A stretch of 47,532 nt of DNA from Nitrospirota bacterium (GTDB lineage: Bacteria > Nitrospirota > Thermodesulfovibrionia > Thermodesulfovibrionales > UBA6898): contig JAJZPM010000025.1 in the NCBI GenBank assembly GCA_021811105.1, positions 1 to 47,532 on the forward strand, given 5' to 3'. Under the pieces are notes generated by a model, which made no database searches, was not told where the DNA came from, and saw only the letters and a list, made by a program, of their open reading frames with translations. Below, piece by piece: positions 17,995-38,540 of the stretch (its first letter is position 1; each line of letters opens with the position of its first letter). A program made the position numbers and the translations under genes.

Positions 17995-18029
17995 TTCAAG
18001 GTCCCTTTTCAGGGCAAGTTGTGCGTCTT

Positions 18030-18956
18030 CTATTTCAGCGCTCCGCTCAGCAATTCCCTTACCGATGAGGAGGATTGAATGAACGCCTTCCTCTCTTCAT
18101 CCGTGAGATCGAGTTCGATGATCTTCTCGACCCCTTCTTTGCCCAGGACGACGGGCACACCCACAAAAAGGCCCGATATCCCGTATTCCCCCTGGAGATA
18201 CGCGGCACACGGCAGCACCCGCCTCTCATCGAGCAGGATCGCCCTCACCATCTGAAAAACCGCCGCCGCCGGAGCATAGTAGGCGCTCCCGGTCTTCAGC
18301 AGCGACACGATCTCCGCGCCCCCATTCCTCGTCCTTTGTATCAACTCGGCAATGCGGGCCGCATCGAGAAGTTTTTCCACGGACACACCCTTGACAGTAG
18401 TAAATCTCGGCATCGGAACCATAAGGTCCCCATGTCCCCCCAGCACCAGAGCCTCTACGTCTTCAGGGGAGACCCCCAGTGCAAAGGAGATGAATGTCCT
18501 GAACCTGGCTGAATCGAGTACCCCTCCCATGCCGACAACCCTGCGGGGAGAAAAGCCCGACAGCGTCCAAGTTATCTGAGTCATGACATCCATCGGGTTG
18601 GTGACTATAATGTAGACCGCATTGGGTGACAATCCCGCGGTCCCTGCGGTTACGCTCTTTATGACGGCGGCGTTTGCTTGAAGGAGATCGTCGCGGCTCA
18701 TGCCAGGTTTTCTCGGGAGTCCGGCGGTGACGACTATGATGTCCGATCCCGCAGTGTCAGCCAGATCGTTGGTCCCCTTGCAGGCCGTGGAAACATTCCA
18801 GAGCGGGGCTGCCTCGTAGAGGTCGAGCGCTTTGCCTTGCGGAACGCCTTCGGCGATGTCATACAGCACCACATCAGCCAGTCCGGACTGTAGAATCAAC
18901 TGGGCCGTGTTTGAGCCGACATGGCCCGCACCTATGACCGATACTTTCGCCTTCAT
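18030..18956 (-). CDS. mdh: Malate dehydrogenase, lactate-dehydrogenase-like class
   Basis: The 308-residue enzyme (from ATG 18956, MKAKVSVIGAGHVGSNTA) interconverts malate and oxaloacetate with NAD. It has the dinucleotide loop GAGHVG, the substrate loop VTAGLPRKPGMSRDDLL with the arginine that selects malate over lactate, and the catalytic histidine in LGGHGDLMVP. The earlier ATG at 18968 lies inside the TATAAT of its own promoter and is unlikely to be used. With transcription starting about seven bases after that box, the mRNA would begin only three or four bases before the chosen ATG. ndk follows. Confidence 0.95.
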   Translation of the reverse strand: MKAKVSVIGAGHVGSNTAQLILQSGLADVVLYDIAEGVPQGKALDLYEAAPLWNVSTACKGTNDLADTAGSDIIVVTAGLPRKPGMSRDDLLQANAAVIKSVTAGTAGLSPNAVYIIVTNPMDVMTQITWTLSGFSPRRVVGMGGVLDSARFRTFISFALGVSPEDVEALVLGGHGDLMVPMPRFTTVKGVSVEKLLDAARIAELIQRTRNGGAEIVSLLKTGSAYYAPAAAVFQMVRAILLDERRVLPCAAYLQGEYGISGLFVGVPVVLGKEGVEKIIELDLTDEERKAFIQSSSSVRELLSGALK

Positions 18957-18966
18957 ATGAGCCGTC

Positions 18967-18996
18967 ATTATAAAATATGACGTTATCGAATGGCAA
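18967..18996 (-). promoter_or_regulatory. Promoter of mdh-ndk
   Basis: Minus-strand TTGCCA (18996-18991) and a perfect TATAAT (18972-18967) are 18 bases apart. Ten bases separate the -10 from the mdh ATG, so the transcript is predicted to be almost leaderless. Confidence 0.7.
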
Positions 18997-24236: not shown

Positions 24237-24242
24237 TAAAAT

Positions 24243-25535
24243 CTAACAGGGGAGAGGCTTCCCCGATAATGAATGATGGCGCGCCTGTTCGATGAACACC
24301 TGAACAAACGAACCTTGGACATATCCGTCGCCAGCTACTGTGACGATCTTATTTGTCCTTGTTCTGCCCATAAGTAGGGTGCCGTCAGTATCCGATGGCC
24401 CTTCGACAAGGATCTCCTGCACCGTACCCTCAAGCGCCCTATTCTTTCTGAGTGTAATCTCCTCCTGTAATTTCAATATCTCGCCAAGCCTTAGGGATTT
24501 CTCTTCATCAGAAATCCTGTCGTCCATTTCCGCAGCCTTTGTACCCTTTCTCGGAGAATACTTAAAGGCAAAAATGCCGTCATATCCTATTGCGCGGAGC
24601 GCCCTCAGCGTCTCCTCATGGTCGCGGCTTGTTTCGCCCGGAAACCCGGCAATCACATCGGCAGTGATCGAGACATGAGGCACCTCACTTCGGATTTTCT
24701 CTATCTTGACCATATACTCCTCGTATGTGTAGCCTCTGTTCATGCGAGACAGTATCTCTCTGGAGCCGGACTGGATCGGAAGGTGGATATGCTCACAGAC
24801 ATGCGGCAATTCAGCCACGGCTCGGATCAGTTCATCCGAGAGGTCCCTCGGATGGGAGGTGACGAAGCGTATTCTTTCTATTCCCAGTGCGTCGATTCGT
24901 CTCAGGAGTTGAGGGAAGGTAATATCGCTGCAGTATGAGTTTACATTCTGGCCCAGAAGAGTCACTTCCTTATATCCTTTTTCACTGAGACTCCGTATCT
25001 CGGCGATGATCGCACTGCTCGGCCTTGAAACTTCACGCCCCCTTGTCAAAGGCACGATGCAGTACGAGCAGAAGTTGTTGCATCCGAACATTATGGAAAC
25101 CCACGCCTTGATTTCGCTCCCGCGTCTGGCTGCAACCTCGGTGGAGGCCAATTCCCTGTTATCGTCAAGCAGGGCGGTGCGACGTTCTCCGCCAATCGTC
25201 TCGGCGATCAGATGAATATTTTGGGGCCCGACAATAAAATCAACATAAGGGGCCCTCCCGAAAAGCCTCTCTTTCGTCTCCTGGGCAACACATCCCGCAA
25301 CCGCGATCTTAACTTCATTGCGCCTTCTTTTCAGCATCTTGGTTCTGCCGAGCTGACTGTAAAATTTCTGTTCGGCTTTTTCTCGGATTGCGCAGGTGTT
25401 GAAGATTATAAGGTCCGCGCCTTCCGGACTTTCAGCACGGGCATATCCCTGGCCATGAAGAATACCGAGCATCTTTTCGGAGTCGTGGACATTCATCTGG
25501 CATCCGTAGGTGTAAATATATACTGATTTTCTCAT
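24243..25535 (-). CDS. miaB: tRNA i6A37 methylthiotransferase
   Basis: The enzyme converts i6A to ms2i6A at position 37 of tRNAs reading UNN codons. It has the MiaB cysteines (YTYGCQMNVHDSEKM, NTCAIREKAEQK, GCVAQ), radical-SAM motif GCNNFCSYCIVPLTRGRE, LLGQNVNSY and a C-terminal TRAM domain. With the ATG at 25535 (MRKSVYIYTYGC) it has 430 residues, the family length. A TTG 36 bases upstream would add an atypical MKKPTPACYIFR segment. mtaB follows after six bases. The gene is divergent from secA. Confidence 0.95.
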   Translation of the reverse strand: MRKSVYIYTYGCQMNVHDSEKMLGILHGQGYARAESPEGADLIIFNTCAIREKAEQKFYSQLGRTKMLKRRRNEVKIAVAGCVAQETKERLFGRAPYVDFIVGPQNIHLIAETIGGERRTALLDDNRELASTEVAARRGSEIKAWVSIMFGCNNFCSYCIVPLTRGREVSRPSSAIIAEIRSLSEKGYKEVTLLGQNVNSYCSDITFPQLLRRIDALGIERIRFVTSHPRDLSDELIRAVAELPHVCEHIHLPIQSGSREILSRMNRGYTYEEYMVKIEKIRSEVPHVSITADVIAGFPGETSRDHEETLRALRAIGYDGIFAFKYSPRKGTKAAEMDDRISDEEKSLRLGEILKLQEEITLRKNRALEGTVQEILVEGPSDTDGTLLMGRTRTNKIVTVAGDGYVQGSFVQVFIEQARHHSLSGKPLPC

Positions 25536-25629
25536 CCTGAAAATGTAACACGCCGGCGTGGGTTTCTTCAATTTCCAGATTCCAATGAATGGAAATATCT
25601 CATCTAACGCTTTGATATACCGGCATTTC

Positions 25630-34011: not shown

Positions 34012-34290
34012 TTATGCGAGAGGAACTCTTCGTTCCTTCGCGTAATTCCGTATTACCATCGTGGCCGCGAAAAGTCTCTGCAGTCTCAGGTTCCTGCTTC
34101 GTATCGCAAGAATATCGTGTGTCGGAAACCTTTCCGCACGGATCTCGACCTGGACTTTCGATATCTCGCTGTAGAAATCGCGCAGCGTTTCGCGATCGAA
34201 CGACTTCAGGAACAAAGGATTCACGATGACATATCCCTCCGCCACATCCCGTATCGTTGCTTTGAGACTCTTTCCCCTGACGTTAGACAT
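34012..34290 (-). CDS. Small conserved-looking protein of unknown function after tatC
   Basis: From the ATG at 34290, which overlaps the tatC stop (ATGTCTAA), the product has 92 residues, MSNVRGKSLKATIRDVAEGY to RRVPLA. It is basic, with no signal peptide or membrane segment, and contains TLRDFYSEISKVQVEIRAERFPTHD and a helical C-terminus. I do not recognise the family. Coupling to tatC and position before the HEAT and HD-GYP genes make it a real operon member. An upstream in-frame start at 34332 would lie inside tatC. Confidence 0.75.
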   Translation of the reverse strand: MSNVRGKSLKATIRDVAEGYVIVNPLFLKSFDRETLRDFYSEISKVQVEIRAERFPTHDILAIRSRNLRLQRLFAATMVIRNYAKERRVPLA

Positions 34291-35053
34291 TCTTCCGTTT
34301 CCTGTAAATGAGTCTGGACAATAGTATACCAATTTCGTACAGGATAATTATAGGTACGGCCATGAGGGTCTGGTTAAAGGCGTCCGGCGTGGGGGTGAGA
34401 ATCGCACCGGCAATAAAGGCGAAGAGTACCGCGAATTTTCGGTTTTTCGCCAGTGTCTTCGGGGTAACTACGCCGATCTTCGTCAGGAAGACAATGACCA
34501 GCGGCAGCTCAAAAATAATCCCGAACGCAAGTATGAACTTCAGGCAGAAGTCGACATAGCTCCCGACCGACAACATCGGGGCGATGTTTTGTGTCTTGTA
34601 GCCCAGCAGGAACGTGATGGCGAACGGCAGGACAATCCCGAAACAGAAGAGAGCACCGACGAGAAATAGTGAAGTGGCGAAAAAAATAAACGGTATCACA
34701 TATTTTTTTTCTTTCTCGAGAAGCCCGGGAGCAATGAAGCGCCACAGCTGATAAAATACTACCGGCAGCGATATGATCAGGGAGGCGACAAGAGACACCT
34801 TGAGGTGCATCCAGAAGGCCTCTGCAGGGGCAAGGAAGACGAGCGGAGCGGCTGTCTTCCGTATCACCTCGATATACGGTGCCCCGACGCTGAAATGCAA
34901 CTCGGCCCTGAGGGGGAACGTAATGAGTTCGAAGAGTTTTTCGGAGTAGTTAAAGACGACGACGAAAACAACAAAGACCGCCGCGAGGGAAGTAAGTATC
35001 CTCCTCCGAAGCTCCGAAAGATGTTCTGTCAGGGGCATCTTCGCGCTTTCCAA
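34283..35053 (-). CDS. tatC: Twin-arginine translocase subunit TatC
   Basis: The 256-residue membrane protein has six transmembrane segments and the TatC marks MPLTEHLSELRRRI at the N-terminus, the SF-like periplasmic loops, WRFIAPGLLEKEKKYVIPF and FGIIFELPLVIVFLTKIG. It binds the twin-arginine signal and exports folded, often cofactor-bearing proteins. It directly follows tatB without a gap and overlaps the next small gene by eight bases. Confidence 0.96.
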   Translation of the reverse strand: MESAKMPLTEHLSELRRRILTSLAAVFVVFVVVFNYSEKLFELITFPLRAELHFSVGAPYIEVIRKTAAPLVFLAPAEAFWMHLKVSLVASLIISLPVVFYQLWRFIAPGLLEKEKKYVIPFIFFATSLFLVGALFCFGIVLPFAITFLLGYKTQNIAPMLSVGSYVDFCLKFILAFGIIFELPLVIVFLTKIGVVTPKTLAKNRKFAVLFAFIAGAILTPTPDAFNQTLMAVPIIILYEIGILLSRLIYRKRKNV

Positions 35054-35335
35054 TCAGCCCTTGTCCTTCCCTTCATCCGTTTTTTTTGTCTCAGAGTTGT
35101 CGCTATCTATTTTTTCTTTTTCGCCCGAAACCGACTTTGCCTCTTCTTCGGCGTGCTTTTTTTCGGTCTCTTCGAATTCGCTTTCCATCTGGACCTTCGC
35201 GTTTTGGATCCCCCTTCTGATTTCTATCATCCATTTGCCGAGCGTCCTGCCGATCTCCGGAAGCTTTTCCGGGCCGAAGACGAGCAGGGCGATCACAAAG
35301 ATGATCACTAATTCCTGAAAACCGATATCAAACAT
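35054..35335 (-). CDS. tatB: Sec-independent translocase subunit TatB
   Basis: The 93-residue protein has one N-terminal transmembrane segment ([22 protein letters not shown]), the hinge [15 protein letters not shown], an amphipathic helix and a long charged Glu/Lys-rich tail. The MFDIGF start is typical of TatB rather than TatA, and the adjacency to tatC fits. No separate tatA is seen in the window, so the protein could also serve as the TatA/E type. Confidence 0.9.
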
Positions 35336-35367
35336 TGTCGTGTCCGGGGAAGATCACCGCGGAGAGG

Positions 35368-36150
35368 TCACTCTTCTTCAAAAATCTTCTTGATCTCCTT
35401 CTTCTTTTCTGGAGGAGCGTAACTTATCGCGATCAATATGCGAAGTTCCGGCGACCGCCTCTTCAAATCCGTGCCGACCCCTAGGGTAGTATAAATTGAA
35501 TCAGTGGTCCTGAACCGGTACCCGAAACGCGCTTCCACCTGATCGTAGTTATTCGAAAAATGGCTTTTTCTGGCAAGTATCTCTCCGAGCATCTTAAAGT
35601 TATGGGCGGCAGAAAATTCTATTCCCCCCAGGAAGGTGATTTCATCTTTGAGTGTGCCTGTTCCCGGCTTCTCATAAAAGAAATTCATGTGTCCCTTAAA
35701 AGGCCCTACCCTTTTGCTTATAATGAGCCCGGCACCGAATCTGCCGCTGGTGCCGAATTCGTCCCGGCCGTTATTGATCGAGACGTTGAGCAGATAGGCC
35801 AGAGAAGGGCCGTATTTGCCTTCATTGTAGAATCTGTGCTTGAAACCGAAAGCAATATCTTCCATGCCATCCACCGAATCCGCGAAGTTAAATACGTACG
35901 GCACCGTGATATCGAATTCGATGGAATCGGAAATCCCGTAAGCTCCCCTGGCGCTGAAACGGTAAAAATCCGGGTCATTCGACCGTTCGAACCCTACCTC
36001 AAAGGCAGCCTTGCTTTTTGGAAGGCTTTCGGCGCTGAACGTCGAGAAGACGCCGTATGGCGCAACAGGCTGCAGACCGGAAATGTCGAAGCCATATGAT
36101 GTGCCCGCCATAAAAAGAAACGCCAGAAGAAGGAAATAAGCTCTTTTCAT
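35368..36150 (-). CDS. Predicted outer-membrane beta-barrel protein
   Basis: The 260-residue protein has a signal peptide (about 1-20, ending TSYG-F). Amphipathic beta-strands alternate through the rest, such as YRFSARGAYGISDSIEFDITVPYVFNF, GFKHRFYNEG and EARFGYRF. The short turns are typical of transporter-like or phenol-MetA-type barrels. The lysine-rich C-terminus (PEKKKEIKKIFEEE) lacks the usual terminal aromatic residue. It lies alone between tatB and the trxA promoter. A -10 box nine bases before the ATG and the lack of a ribosome-binding site suggest a nearly leaderless mRNA. The substrate is unknown. Confidence 0.78.
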   Translation of the reverse strand: MKRAYFLLLAFLFMAGTSYGFDISGLQPVAPYGVFSTFSAESLPKSKAAFEVGFERSNDPDFYRFSARGAYGISDSIEFDITVPYVFNFADSVDGMEDIAFGFKHRFYNEGKYGPSLAYLLNVSINNGRDEFGTSGRFGAGLIISKRVGPFKGHMNFFYEKPGTGTLKDEITFLGGIEFSAAHNFKMLGEILARKSHFSNNYDQVEARFGYRFRTTDSIYTTLGVGTDLKRRSPELRILIAISYAPPEKKKEIKKIFEEE

Positions 36151-36159
36151 TTATTATGA

Positions 36160-36188
36160 AAAATAGCAGAAAAATCTCCGGCTGTCAA
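36160..36188 (-). promoter_or_regulatory. Divergent promoter of the outer-membrane protein gene
   Basis: A perfect TTGACA (36188-36183 on the minus strand) and TATTTT (36165-36160) are 17 bases apart. The -35 lies in the left arm of the long inverted repeat at 36183-36237. Confidence 0.5.
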
Positions 36189-36237
36189 TGAAACGCCCCT
36201 TTGACTCATCCTGCAGTTGCAGGGCATTTCATTGACA
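36183..36237. repeat. Long inverted repeat carrying both divergent -35 boxes
   Basis: Arms 36183-36198 and 36222-36237 are 16 bases each, pairing at 15 positions, with 23 bases between. The outer six bases of each arm are TGTCAA and TTGACA, the -35 elements of the two divergent promoters. Confidence 0.75.
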
Positions 36238-36261
36238 AAGAGCGAAATTTCGCAATATAAT
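36232..36261 (+). promoter_or_regulatory. Strong promoter of trxA with palindrome in the spacer
   Basis: TTGACA (36232-36237) and TATAAT (36256-36261) are both perfect and 18 bases apart. The spacer contains the perfect 12-base palindrome GCGAAATTTCGC (36242-36253), a possible operator. Confidence 0.8.
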
Positions 36262-36288
36262 GTAAGAACTTTTCTGAGGAGGTACTAT

Positions 36289-36621
36289 ATGGCTGAAGGT
36301 TTGCTTGAGGTGACAACTGCGACATGGGAAAAGGAAGTGCTGAACGACGCCGGGCTGGTGATGATCGATTTCTGGGCTGTCTGGTGCGGCCCATGCCGTA
36401 TGATAGCCCCGACCGTAGAAGAACTGGCGAAAGAGTATGCCGGAAAAGTCAAGGTCGTAAAACTCAACACGGATGAAAACCCCGAAATTGCCAGCAGATA
36501 TAAAATAATGGGGATCCCGACGCTCATGTTTTTTAAGGCGGGCCAAAAAGTGGATCAGATCGTAGGTGCTGTTCCAAAGCCGCAGCTGAAGGCAAAGCTT
36601 GACGCGCTGATTAGTGCATAA
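36289..36621 (+). CDS. trxA: Thioredoxin
   Basis: The 110-residue cytoplasmic thioredoxin has the active site [11 protein letters not shown] and the cis-proline in MGIPTLMFF. The ATG at 36289 has GAGGAGG six bases upstream; frames open further upstream run through the promoter and are not used. It lies 69 bases before a TlpA-like lipoprotein gene, so cytoplasmic and periplasmic thiol proteins are neighbours. Length and motifs are standard. Confidence 0.96.
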
Positions 36622-36690
36622 GGCGTTCTCCCGTTCTTTTGCAAAGTCCATCAATCCGTTTCGGTTGCATCATAATCGAGAGGTGAATTA

Positions 36691-37212
36691 TTGAAAAAGG
36701 TACTGCTTGTTTTGTTCCTGCTGGCGTTGATCGGTCCTGTTGCCTGCAGCAGGAATGGTGCGGGAACGCGGGAACGCCATTCTGCACAATTAGGCGGGGT
36801 TGCGCCTGATTTTGTTCTTAAGGGCGTTGATGGCAAGGAGGTGGCCCTCTCTCACTTCAGGGGAAAGATGGTCTTACTGGAGTTCTGGGCCACATGGTGT
36901 CCTCCCTGCAGAGCGACCGTCCCTGAACTGACTGCGATTCAGGAAAAGTACTCCGGCAAGGGGTTGGTCGTTCTCGCGATATCTCTCGACGAGGGGGCGG
37001 ACCTCCCGGCGAAGCTGTCCTTCTTTTCTAAGGAATTTAAGATCAATTACCGCCTGTTAATCGGCAATGAAGAAACGGAGCGCGCTTACAATGTGAGGAG
37101 CATCCCGATGACGTTTCTCATCGACAGACAGGGAAAGGTCGTCGCCTCATATGTGGGGTACGTCGATAACCTCGCCGCGGTCGTCTCCGAGCAGATGGAC
37201 AAAACCATTTAG
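36691..37212 (+). CDS. TlpA-family thioredoxin-like lipoprotein
   Basis: The 173-residue protein starts at a TTG (36691) with GAGGTG six bases upstream. The signal peptide ends in a lipobox-like GPVAC (Cys 19), so it is probably lipid-anchored in the periplasm. The thioredoxin-like domain has LEFWATWCPPCRATVPEL and the cis-proline in VRSIPMTFLID. It reduces disulfides outside the cytoplasm, for instance in cytochrome c maturation. It is a second TlpA-type protein beside that at 14136-14648. ffh follows after eight bases, so it may share the trxA or ffh transcript. Confidence 0.9.
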   Translation: MKKVLLVLFLLALIGPVACSRNGAGTRERHSAQLGGVAPDFVLKGVDGKEVALSHFRGKMVLLEFWATWCPPCRATVPELTAIQEKYSGKGLVVLAISLDEGADLPAKLSFFSKEFKINYRLLIGNEETERAYNVRSIPMTFLIDRQGKVVASYVGYVDNLAAVVSEQMDKTI

Positions 37213-37220
37213 GATTTACG

Positions 37221-38540
37221 ATGTTCGAAAATATCAGCGATAAGCTCGACGCCGCACTGAAAAAAATAAAGGGAAGAGGACTCCTTAAAGAAGAGGACAT
37301 CGATGCGGCGATGAAGGAAATCCGCCTCGCGCTCCTTGAGGCGGACGTAAATTTCAAGGTCGTGAAGGACCTTGTAGAAAAAATCAAGTCGAAGGCGGTG
37401 GGGAAGGAGGTCCTCGAAAGCCTGACTCCGGGGCAGCAAGTCGTGAAGATCGTAAACGATGAACTCTGCGATCTTCTCGGAAGGTCAACCAGCAGGATAG
37501 CACTCGCTCCCAATCCTCCCACGGTTATCATGATGATAGGACTGCAGGGCTCGGGGAAGACCACGACCTCCGCCAAACTGGCGCGGTACTTCAAAAAAGA
37601 GGGACGGCGCCCCCTGCTCGCGGCATGCGACCTCCAGCGGCCGGCCGCAATAGACCAGTTGATTGCGCTCGGAAAACAGATAGACGTCGCTGTCTACGCC
37701 TCCAGAGATGCGAAGGACCCTGTGCTGGTGGCGCGTGATGCGCTCGCCAAGTCCAGGGCCGCTGCCCACGATATCGTGATTATCGACACTGCCGGAAGGC
37801 TGCACGTAGATGAGTCCCTTATGCAGGAACTGAAAAAGGTCAAGGAAGGCGTCGCGCCGAAAGAAACGCTTCTCGTCGCAGATTCAATGACAGGCCAGGA
37901 CGCCGTCACCATCGCGAAGCATTTCAACGATCAGATAGGCATTGACGGTATTATATTGACGAAGATGGACGGCGACGCGCGCGGGGGTGCCGCGCTTTCG
38001 ATACGGGCCGTGACCCAGAAGCCCATCAAGTTCATCGGCTTGGGTGAAAAGATAGACATGCTGGAGCCGTTTCATCCTGACAGGATCGCGTCGAGAATTC
38101 TCGGCATGGGCGACGTGCTCAGCCTGATCGAGCAGGCCCAGAAATCCTTTGACCAGAAGGAGGCGGAAACGCTCCAAAAAAGGATTCTGGAAGATTCGTT
38201 CACCTTCGACGACCTGAAGGAACAACTGAAGAAGGTGAGAAGCATGGGCCCTCTCGAAAGCGTCCTGGGCATGATTCCGGGGTTCAACAAGGTGAAAAAT
38301 ATTACTGTTGACGAGAGGGAGTTCGTAAAGGTCGAGGCGGTCATCAACTCCATGACGGCGAGGGAAAAGGCGAATCACAATCTCTTGAACGGCAGCCGGA
38401 GAAAAAGAATCGCTCTCGGCAGCGGAACGACCGTCGCTGACGTCAACAGGGTGATCAAGCAATACGTTGAGCTGAAGAAGATGCTGAAGATGTTCAAGGG
38501 GAAGAAGAACATCAAACTTCCCAAGTTTTTTTGCCTCTGA
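37221..38540 (+). CDS. ffh: Signal recognition particle GTPase
   Basis: The 439-residue protein has the N domain ([18 protein letters not shown]), the GTPase G domain (Walker [36 protein letters not shown]) and the methionine-containing M domain (about 300-439: [30 protein letters not shown]). It targets nascent membrane proteins to SecYEG. It heads the ffh-rpsP-khpA-rimM-trmD-rplS-rnhB series. The M domain is shortish and ends KLPKFFCL. Confidence 0.96.

Follow-up and report, generated by a model that had tools for sequence, protein, structure and literature searches.

Gene neighborhood of the OMP-trxA intergenic region

The window, that is, the whole 47,532-nt stretch of Nitrospirota DNA analyzed here (contig JAJZPM010000025.1, assembly GCA_021811105.1), contains an OMP gene on the minus strand (35371-36150; start codon ATG at 36150-36148) whose product has a signal-peptide-like start and is a predicted beta-barrel. 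It is the first gene of a minus-strand OMP-tatA/B-tatC-orf106 cluster, being followed by a TatA/TatB-family gene that passes the NCBIfam tatB cut-off (35054-35335) and by tatC (34283-35053). The thioredoxin gene trxA is read in the opposite direction (36289-36621, plus strand); the next gene is ResA-like (resA), and the ORF beyond trxA-resA is presumably ffh. The linked genes, from the predicted beta-barrel OMP through the TatA/B-family gene and tatC to a small ORF, extend over positions 34012-36150 of the minus strand. No NCBIfam match was obtained for the small ORF (106 aa).

Neither Pfam (threshold 0.001) nor NCBIfam (threshold 0.01) gave a match for the OMP encoded in the window; at a looser threshold of 0.1 it matched Phenol_MetA_deg (0.004, below the curated cut-off), a family that was also matched by 25 of the 30 members of OMP alignment A2 (best 2.1e-6). 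A relationship to FapF, the best match among solved structures, was considered and found unconvincing (E value 0.033 over 38 positions). We regard the beta-barrel assignment as a family-level guess, with a weak resemblance to Phenol_MetA_deg.

Comparison with relatives was based on 69 OMP loci, comprising the window and 68 named records. Most of these records were metagenome genomes of Nitrospirota, several of them assigned to Thermodesulfovibrionales or Thermodesulfovibrio, together with a few labeled as uncultured bacterium and one Nitrospinota. A same-strand tatA/B match followed OMP in 65 of the 69 loci and a tatC match in 64. Three of the misses were contig ends (L109 and L152 were cut just after or inside OMP, and L115 after tatA), and two loci, L095 and L143, had no tat matches within the available stretch downstream of OMP. 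In L095 the small ORF lies directly after OMP with neither tatA/B nor tatC matched in that stretch, an apparent loss or relocation of the tat genes.

An inverted repeat that holds two divergent -35 boxes

The intergenic region holds an inverted repeat with 16-nt arms located at 36183-36198 and 36222-36237, which are 23 nt apart and pair at 15 of 16 positions (94% complementary). No other repeat in the window combined pairing at 15 or more of 16 positions with a loop of 3-60 nt. Simple arithmetic gave approximately 0.03 repeats of such quality expected by chance, but six of the 15 pairs are contributed by the two facing -35 boxes themselves. A previous sequence-only reading of this DNA had described the arms and had recognized the outer six bases of each as a -35 box, one belonging to the OMP promoter and the other to the divergent trxA promoter; both observations were correct.

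On the OMP side, the -35 box TTGACA forms the outer end of the left arm (36183-36188, minus strand) and is accompanied by an extended -10 element, TGC-TATTTT (36160-36168), which ends 9 nt from the ATG; this promoter, TTGACA-N17-TATTTT with TG (36188-36160), scored 10 of 12. On the trxA side, the TTGACA box forms the outer end of the right arm (36232-36237, plus strand) and the -10 box is TATAAT (36256-36261), so that the whole promoter, TTGACA-N18-TATAAT (36232-36261), reached the full score of 12 of 12. A Shine-Dalgarno-like sequence, GAGGAGGT (36276-36283, plus strand), was noticed by eye ahead of trxA, which has an ordinary short leader. The inverted repeat is real, yet it is mostly two ordinary promoters pointing apart.

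A small perfect hairpin, CCTGCA-GT-TGCAGG (36210-36223), lies off-centre between the arms; by eye, it is imperfect in the congener G001. No Rfam match to a structured RNA was obtained up to an E value of 1 within 35300-37300.

Conservation of the promoters in relatives

Orthologues of trxA with at least 69% identity were found in 55 of 61 genomes, and 50 of the 55 loci were read. We assembled 24 divergent OMP-trxA pairs, including a second contig of G002 (the first stops 17 nt before trxA). Start codons in these pairs were set by hand at the signal-peptide start; in L036, L040 and L041 this meant taking a GTG instead of an ATG in the same frame, which lies a few codons farther upstream and overlaps the -10 region. 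In G002, one contig stops just upstream of trxA and another starts within the gene.

Both promoters were retained in all 24 pairs. The OMP side invariably showed TTGACA, a spacer of 17 or 18, TG before the -10 box and a start codon 5-9 nt after it, and the -10 box was TATTTT or TATGTT in 22 pairs. The elements of a sigma-70 promoter with an extended -10 (TTGACA, 16-18 bp, TGn and TAnnnT) were thus present in the window and in every pair. On the trxA side, TTGACA-N18-TATAAT was found in 24 of 24 pairs, with the ATG located 25-70 nt past the -10 box.

A wider set of OMP loci, which overlaps with the 24 pairs, gave a similar picture using start codons picked by a script blind to the promoter. Sixty-six of the 69 loci were analyzed; L091 was dropped at a contig edge, and L137 and L146 had no start found. 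A strong promoter (score of at least 9.5) was present in 61 of the 66 loci, and among these, the start lay 5-11 nt beyond the -10 box in 59, TG was present in 58 and an exact TTGACA in 59. Regardless of promoter score, the distance from the -10 box to the start was 5-11 nt in 61 of 66 loci, two of which had weak promoters (L130 and L136), and lay outside this range in five (L112, L129, L132, L140 and L141). The case of L112 is a matter of start choice, because G024, its apparent source genome, gives 7 nt with its GTG. The same distance of 7 nt was found in Thermodesulfovibrio sp. N1 (L147).

The promoter of trxA was similarly stable: TTGACA-N16-19-TANNNT was present in 46 of the 50 trxA loci (23 divergent and 23 not). 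Of the other four, L003 was cut, and L014, L028 and L046 had no TTGACA promoter by this pattern. Among readable loci without the divergent arrangement, 23 of 26 carried the trxA promoter, and the OMP promoter kept its shape at loci with no divergent trxA visible within 400 bp, a definition under which some stretches were contig-cut and L085 was removed by hand. Since each promoter keeps its shape at non-divergent loci, neither needs the other. All these genome counts differ from counts of events because the relatives are not independent.

With good confidence, we interpret the region as a back-to-back arrangement of two separate promoters of the sigma-70 type, the OMP one giving a leaderless or near-leaderless mRNA. 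One promoter would serve trxA (then resA), and the other would serve the OMP-tatA/B-tatC cluster, probably as a single transcript; RNA polymerase would bind at each promoter independently, and the two sides may well be regulated independently. The repeat itself would be a necessary outcome of facing TTGACA boxes whose upstream contexts are alike, each side having TTTCA in the window and in G003. The trxA transcript would be translated from a Shine-Dalgarno site in an ordinary leader, and the OMP transcript would start at the AUG or within about 6 nt, implying leaderless or near-leaderless translation.

Proposed shared regulation of the two promoters

The sequence-only reading had proposed that one protein bound to both arms would control both promoters at once. 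An operator of this kind should have its arms and spacing conserved with the gene pair. In relatives, the distance between the boxes varied from 27 to 285 bp, and a matching run of at least five bases beyond the boxes was observed in only four of 33 distinct pairs, which belong to two genera; the run was 0 in 19 pairs, 1-3 in 10 and 5-6 in four. The proposal was not supported. Loss of the arms in close relatives that keep the gene pair had been named as an argument against it, and the congeners were divided on this point: G002 keeps the pair and loses the right-arm extension, with CATCG in place of TTTCA on the trxA side, and G003 keeps the arms, with TTTCA on both sides.

Arms of the same genome nevertheless matched each other more often than under permutation. 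In the 24 pairs, 61 of 120 matches were found over five positions versus 47.5 in permuted pairs (p 0.0002); permutation within groups raised the expectation to 55.6 (p 0.03), and with four positions p was 0.29. The overall p values ranged from 0.00005 to 0.02, and those within groups from 0.02 to 0.29. In the 33 pairs, the counts were 74 of 165 versus 61.3 for five positions (p 0.007) and 135 of 330 versus 105 for ten positions (p 0.0001), and without the four best pairs p was 0.015 and 0.005, respectively. Matching was strongest in the true register, and four of 18 shifted comparisons also gave p 0.007-0.045. These permutation tests take no account of the tree, and relatedness is a confounder.

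The context of each promoter on its own explained part of this excess. A T was frequent at -4 and -3 before TTGACA in both promoters at non-divergent loci (10 and 11 of 23 for trxA; 21 and 23 of 34 for OMP), so the excess is partly shared promoter context. The trxA-side TTCA extension occurred in 4 of 23 loci with a divergent OMP and in 4 of 23 without it, and TTCA preceded the OMP -35 box at 7 of 33 divergent loci, compared with 2 of 34 others (Fisher p 0.08). We read the arm-matching excess as shared context and ancestry, plus a weak unexplained remainder.

This remainder may reflect a clade-limited shared site on the arms: a repressor or activator would bind both arms, TTTCATTGACA, and co-control the two promoters in this and a related genus, the site having turned over elsewhere. 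Both arms are indeed TTTCATTGACA in G000, G003, G026 and G019, and the strongest within-genome matching in the aligned register would fit such a site. Position -2 upstream of the OMP -35 box also tracks the divergent arrangement, being C in 18 of 24 divergent versus 3 of 34 other loci; this association is possibly due to ancestry or to a shared constraint. We nonetheless consider such a regulator quite unlikely, given the freely varying arm-to-arm spacing, the restriction of TTTCATTGACA-type arm pairing to four of the 33 distinct pairs and the altered trxA side of G002. In addition, TTTCA is kept at trxA in G001, although no OMP orthologue was found there beyond a match with an E value of 7e-4. 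Two of the three exact genomic copies of this 11-mer are located here; the third precedes an ORF whose start is signal-like, with no trxA or OMP nearby, and a TTTCATTGACA regulon was rejected on the basis of this single further copy. No regulator was present among the neighboring genes named within the window.

Near-perfect arms could also arise from template switching between the facing -35 regions and serve no purpose other than that of the promoters. In favor of such homogenization, the arms match only patchily across the relatives, and the matching is strongest in the aligned register; beyond the boxes, 9 of 10 positions match in the window genome, three in G002 and six in G003. However, inherited TTTCA on both sides together with chance would yield the same picture, and we regard homogenization as unlikely. 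Two independent promoters in a similar upstream context remain our preferred explanation of the repeat.

By eye, the similarity between the window and the congener G001 (G001:C33, L002) stops at the left arm (36183-36198). The trxA promoter is retained in G001 and the OMP gene is absent there, a pattern suggestive of a rearrangement breakpoint at the repeat.

The palindrome in the trxA spacer

A palindrome, GCGAAATTTCGC, is present at 36242-36253 within the 18-bp trxA spacer, as had been reported before together with the suggestion that it might be a redox-responsive site. A palindrome of this length is unremarkable as such, because the window contains 15 perfect 12-bp palindromes versus approximately 12 expected from its length. 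The position between the -35 and -10 boxes of trxA brings to mind MerR-type operators, in which a conserved palindrome occupies an over-long spacer. Here, the exact palindrome was found in one of 46 trxA spacers and was the sole palindrome of at least 8 bp among them, and an 18-bp spacer, found in 24 of 24 pairs, is the rule in trxA promoters that lack any such palindrome. With regard to the close relatives, the palindrome was lost in the congeners G002 and G003 despite the retained gene pair; in G001, with no OMP beside trxA, it was present with one changed base.

The genome contains one exact copy and four further places with one mismatch, close to the three in a reversed control. Three of these four copies are inside open frames of at least 100 codons, and a palindrome regulon was rejected. 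The fourth (L203) lies in a gap between two ORFs; the ORF that begins about 150 nt farther on is taken to encode a universal-stress-protein-like product, and this location could be counted in favor of an operator. Overall, it is very improbable that a redox regulator of trxA uses GCGAAATTTCGC as its operator.

A probably leaderless OMP transcript

The position of the OMP promoter suggests that OMP mRNA is probably leaderless and heads an OMP-tatA/B-tatC operon in most relatives examined. The -10 box is close to the start codon (5-9 nt away in each of the 24 pairs), and no match of at least 4 nt to AAGGAGGTGA was detected in the stretch scanned before the OMP start in 63 of 66 loci; in the remaining three, the match was 4 nt. 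The TANNNT signal near the start is treated as a mark of leaderless genes by Zheng et al. (2011; PMC3160421). The distance of 9 nt in the window is at the long end of the range, and under the spacing between -10 box and start site given there, it would allow a leader of up to about 6 nt.

Similar layouts were over-represented across the genome. The arrangement TTGACA-N16-18-TANNNT-N5-9-ATG occurred 48 times, compared with 21 times for the same pattern with N25-29; reversed controls gave one each. Using a crude ORF picker, we collected 274 ORFs from a 447-kb sample (400 kb plus the window), none overlapping another and each with a length of at least about 200 codons; 142 of them had no 5-nt Shine-Dalgarno match at a candidate start. 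In these 142 ORFs, TANNNT was found in 5.6% (eight ORFs) at a distance of 5 and likewise of 6, and in 0-3.5% at the other printed distances. Nineteen of them, including the OMP gene of the window, additionally possessed a -35 box with at least four of six positions, some of the 19 being due to chance. Other ORFs that have no Shine-Dalgarno match likewise begin with an ATG 6-10 nt after a -10 box, for example at 24242-25571 and 18029-18968 (minus strand) of the window and at 35564-36215 of contig C90; judging from their N-termini, we assume these ORFs to be MiaB-like, malate-dehydrogenase-like and RdgB-like, respectively. Because further ORFs share this layout, leaderless genes may be common in this genome.

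No report of leaderless transcription in Nitrospirota was found in the openly licensed papers searched. The main text of PMC3160421 does not contain the string 'Nitrospir', though the phylum could be covered by its row for 'Other Bacteria' (8 of 20 genomes). In the accessible part of PMC10783764, Nitrospira and Thermodesulfovibrionia appear in an anti-Shine-Dalgarno table only. The corresponding part of PMC5397173 does not name the group and describes an AT-rich bias at about -20 to -10 that is not simply attributable to leaderless starts. In Nitrospirota, the OMP gene is probably a well-conserved case of the leaderless genes already known in bacteria.

Should leaderless transcription be confirmed, start-codon calling and expression modeling in the largely uncultured Nitrospirota would have to take leaderless genes into account, with the OMP-tat cluster as a clean test case for why a gene stays leaderless. 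The proposed regulatory switch is replaced by two well-conserved promoters. A broader scenario is speculative and, in our view, doubtful: in Thermodesulfovibrionales and their neighbors, a Tat-export operon headed by a beta-barrel protein would have a leaderless mRNA group-wide, often opposite a Shine-Dalgarno-led thioredoxin gene, and envelope export and the thiol system would thus respond differently whenever leaderless translation is favored.

Comparison with known systems

The region resembles an ordinary sigma-70 divergent pair in that two promoters close to consensus stand back to back, their -35 boxes facing each other; it differs in that one side has an ordinary leader and the other apparently none. 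Divergent operator systems with a regulator between the promoters likewise show an inverted repeat in this position, whereas here neither spacing nor arms are conserved and the named neighbors in the window include no regulator. The closest similarity is to the bacterial leaderless genes described by Zheng et al. (2011; PMC3160421), in which a TANNNT -10 box lies approximately 12 bp upstream of the start codon; the first T of the OMP -10 box precedes the start codon by 11-15 bp in all 24 pairs, with no Shine-Dalgarno sequence. Compared with those genes, the OMP promoter is distinguished by a near-invariant TTGACA at -35 and an extended TGn, and by a gene that heads a tat cluster.
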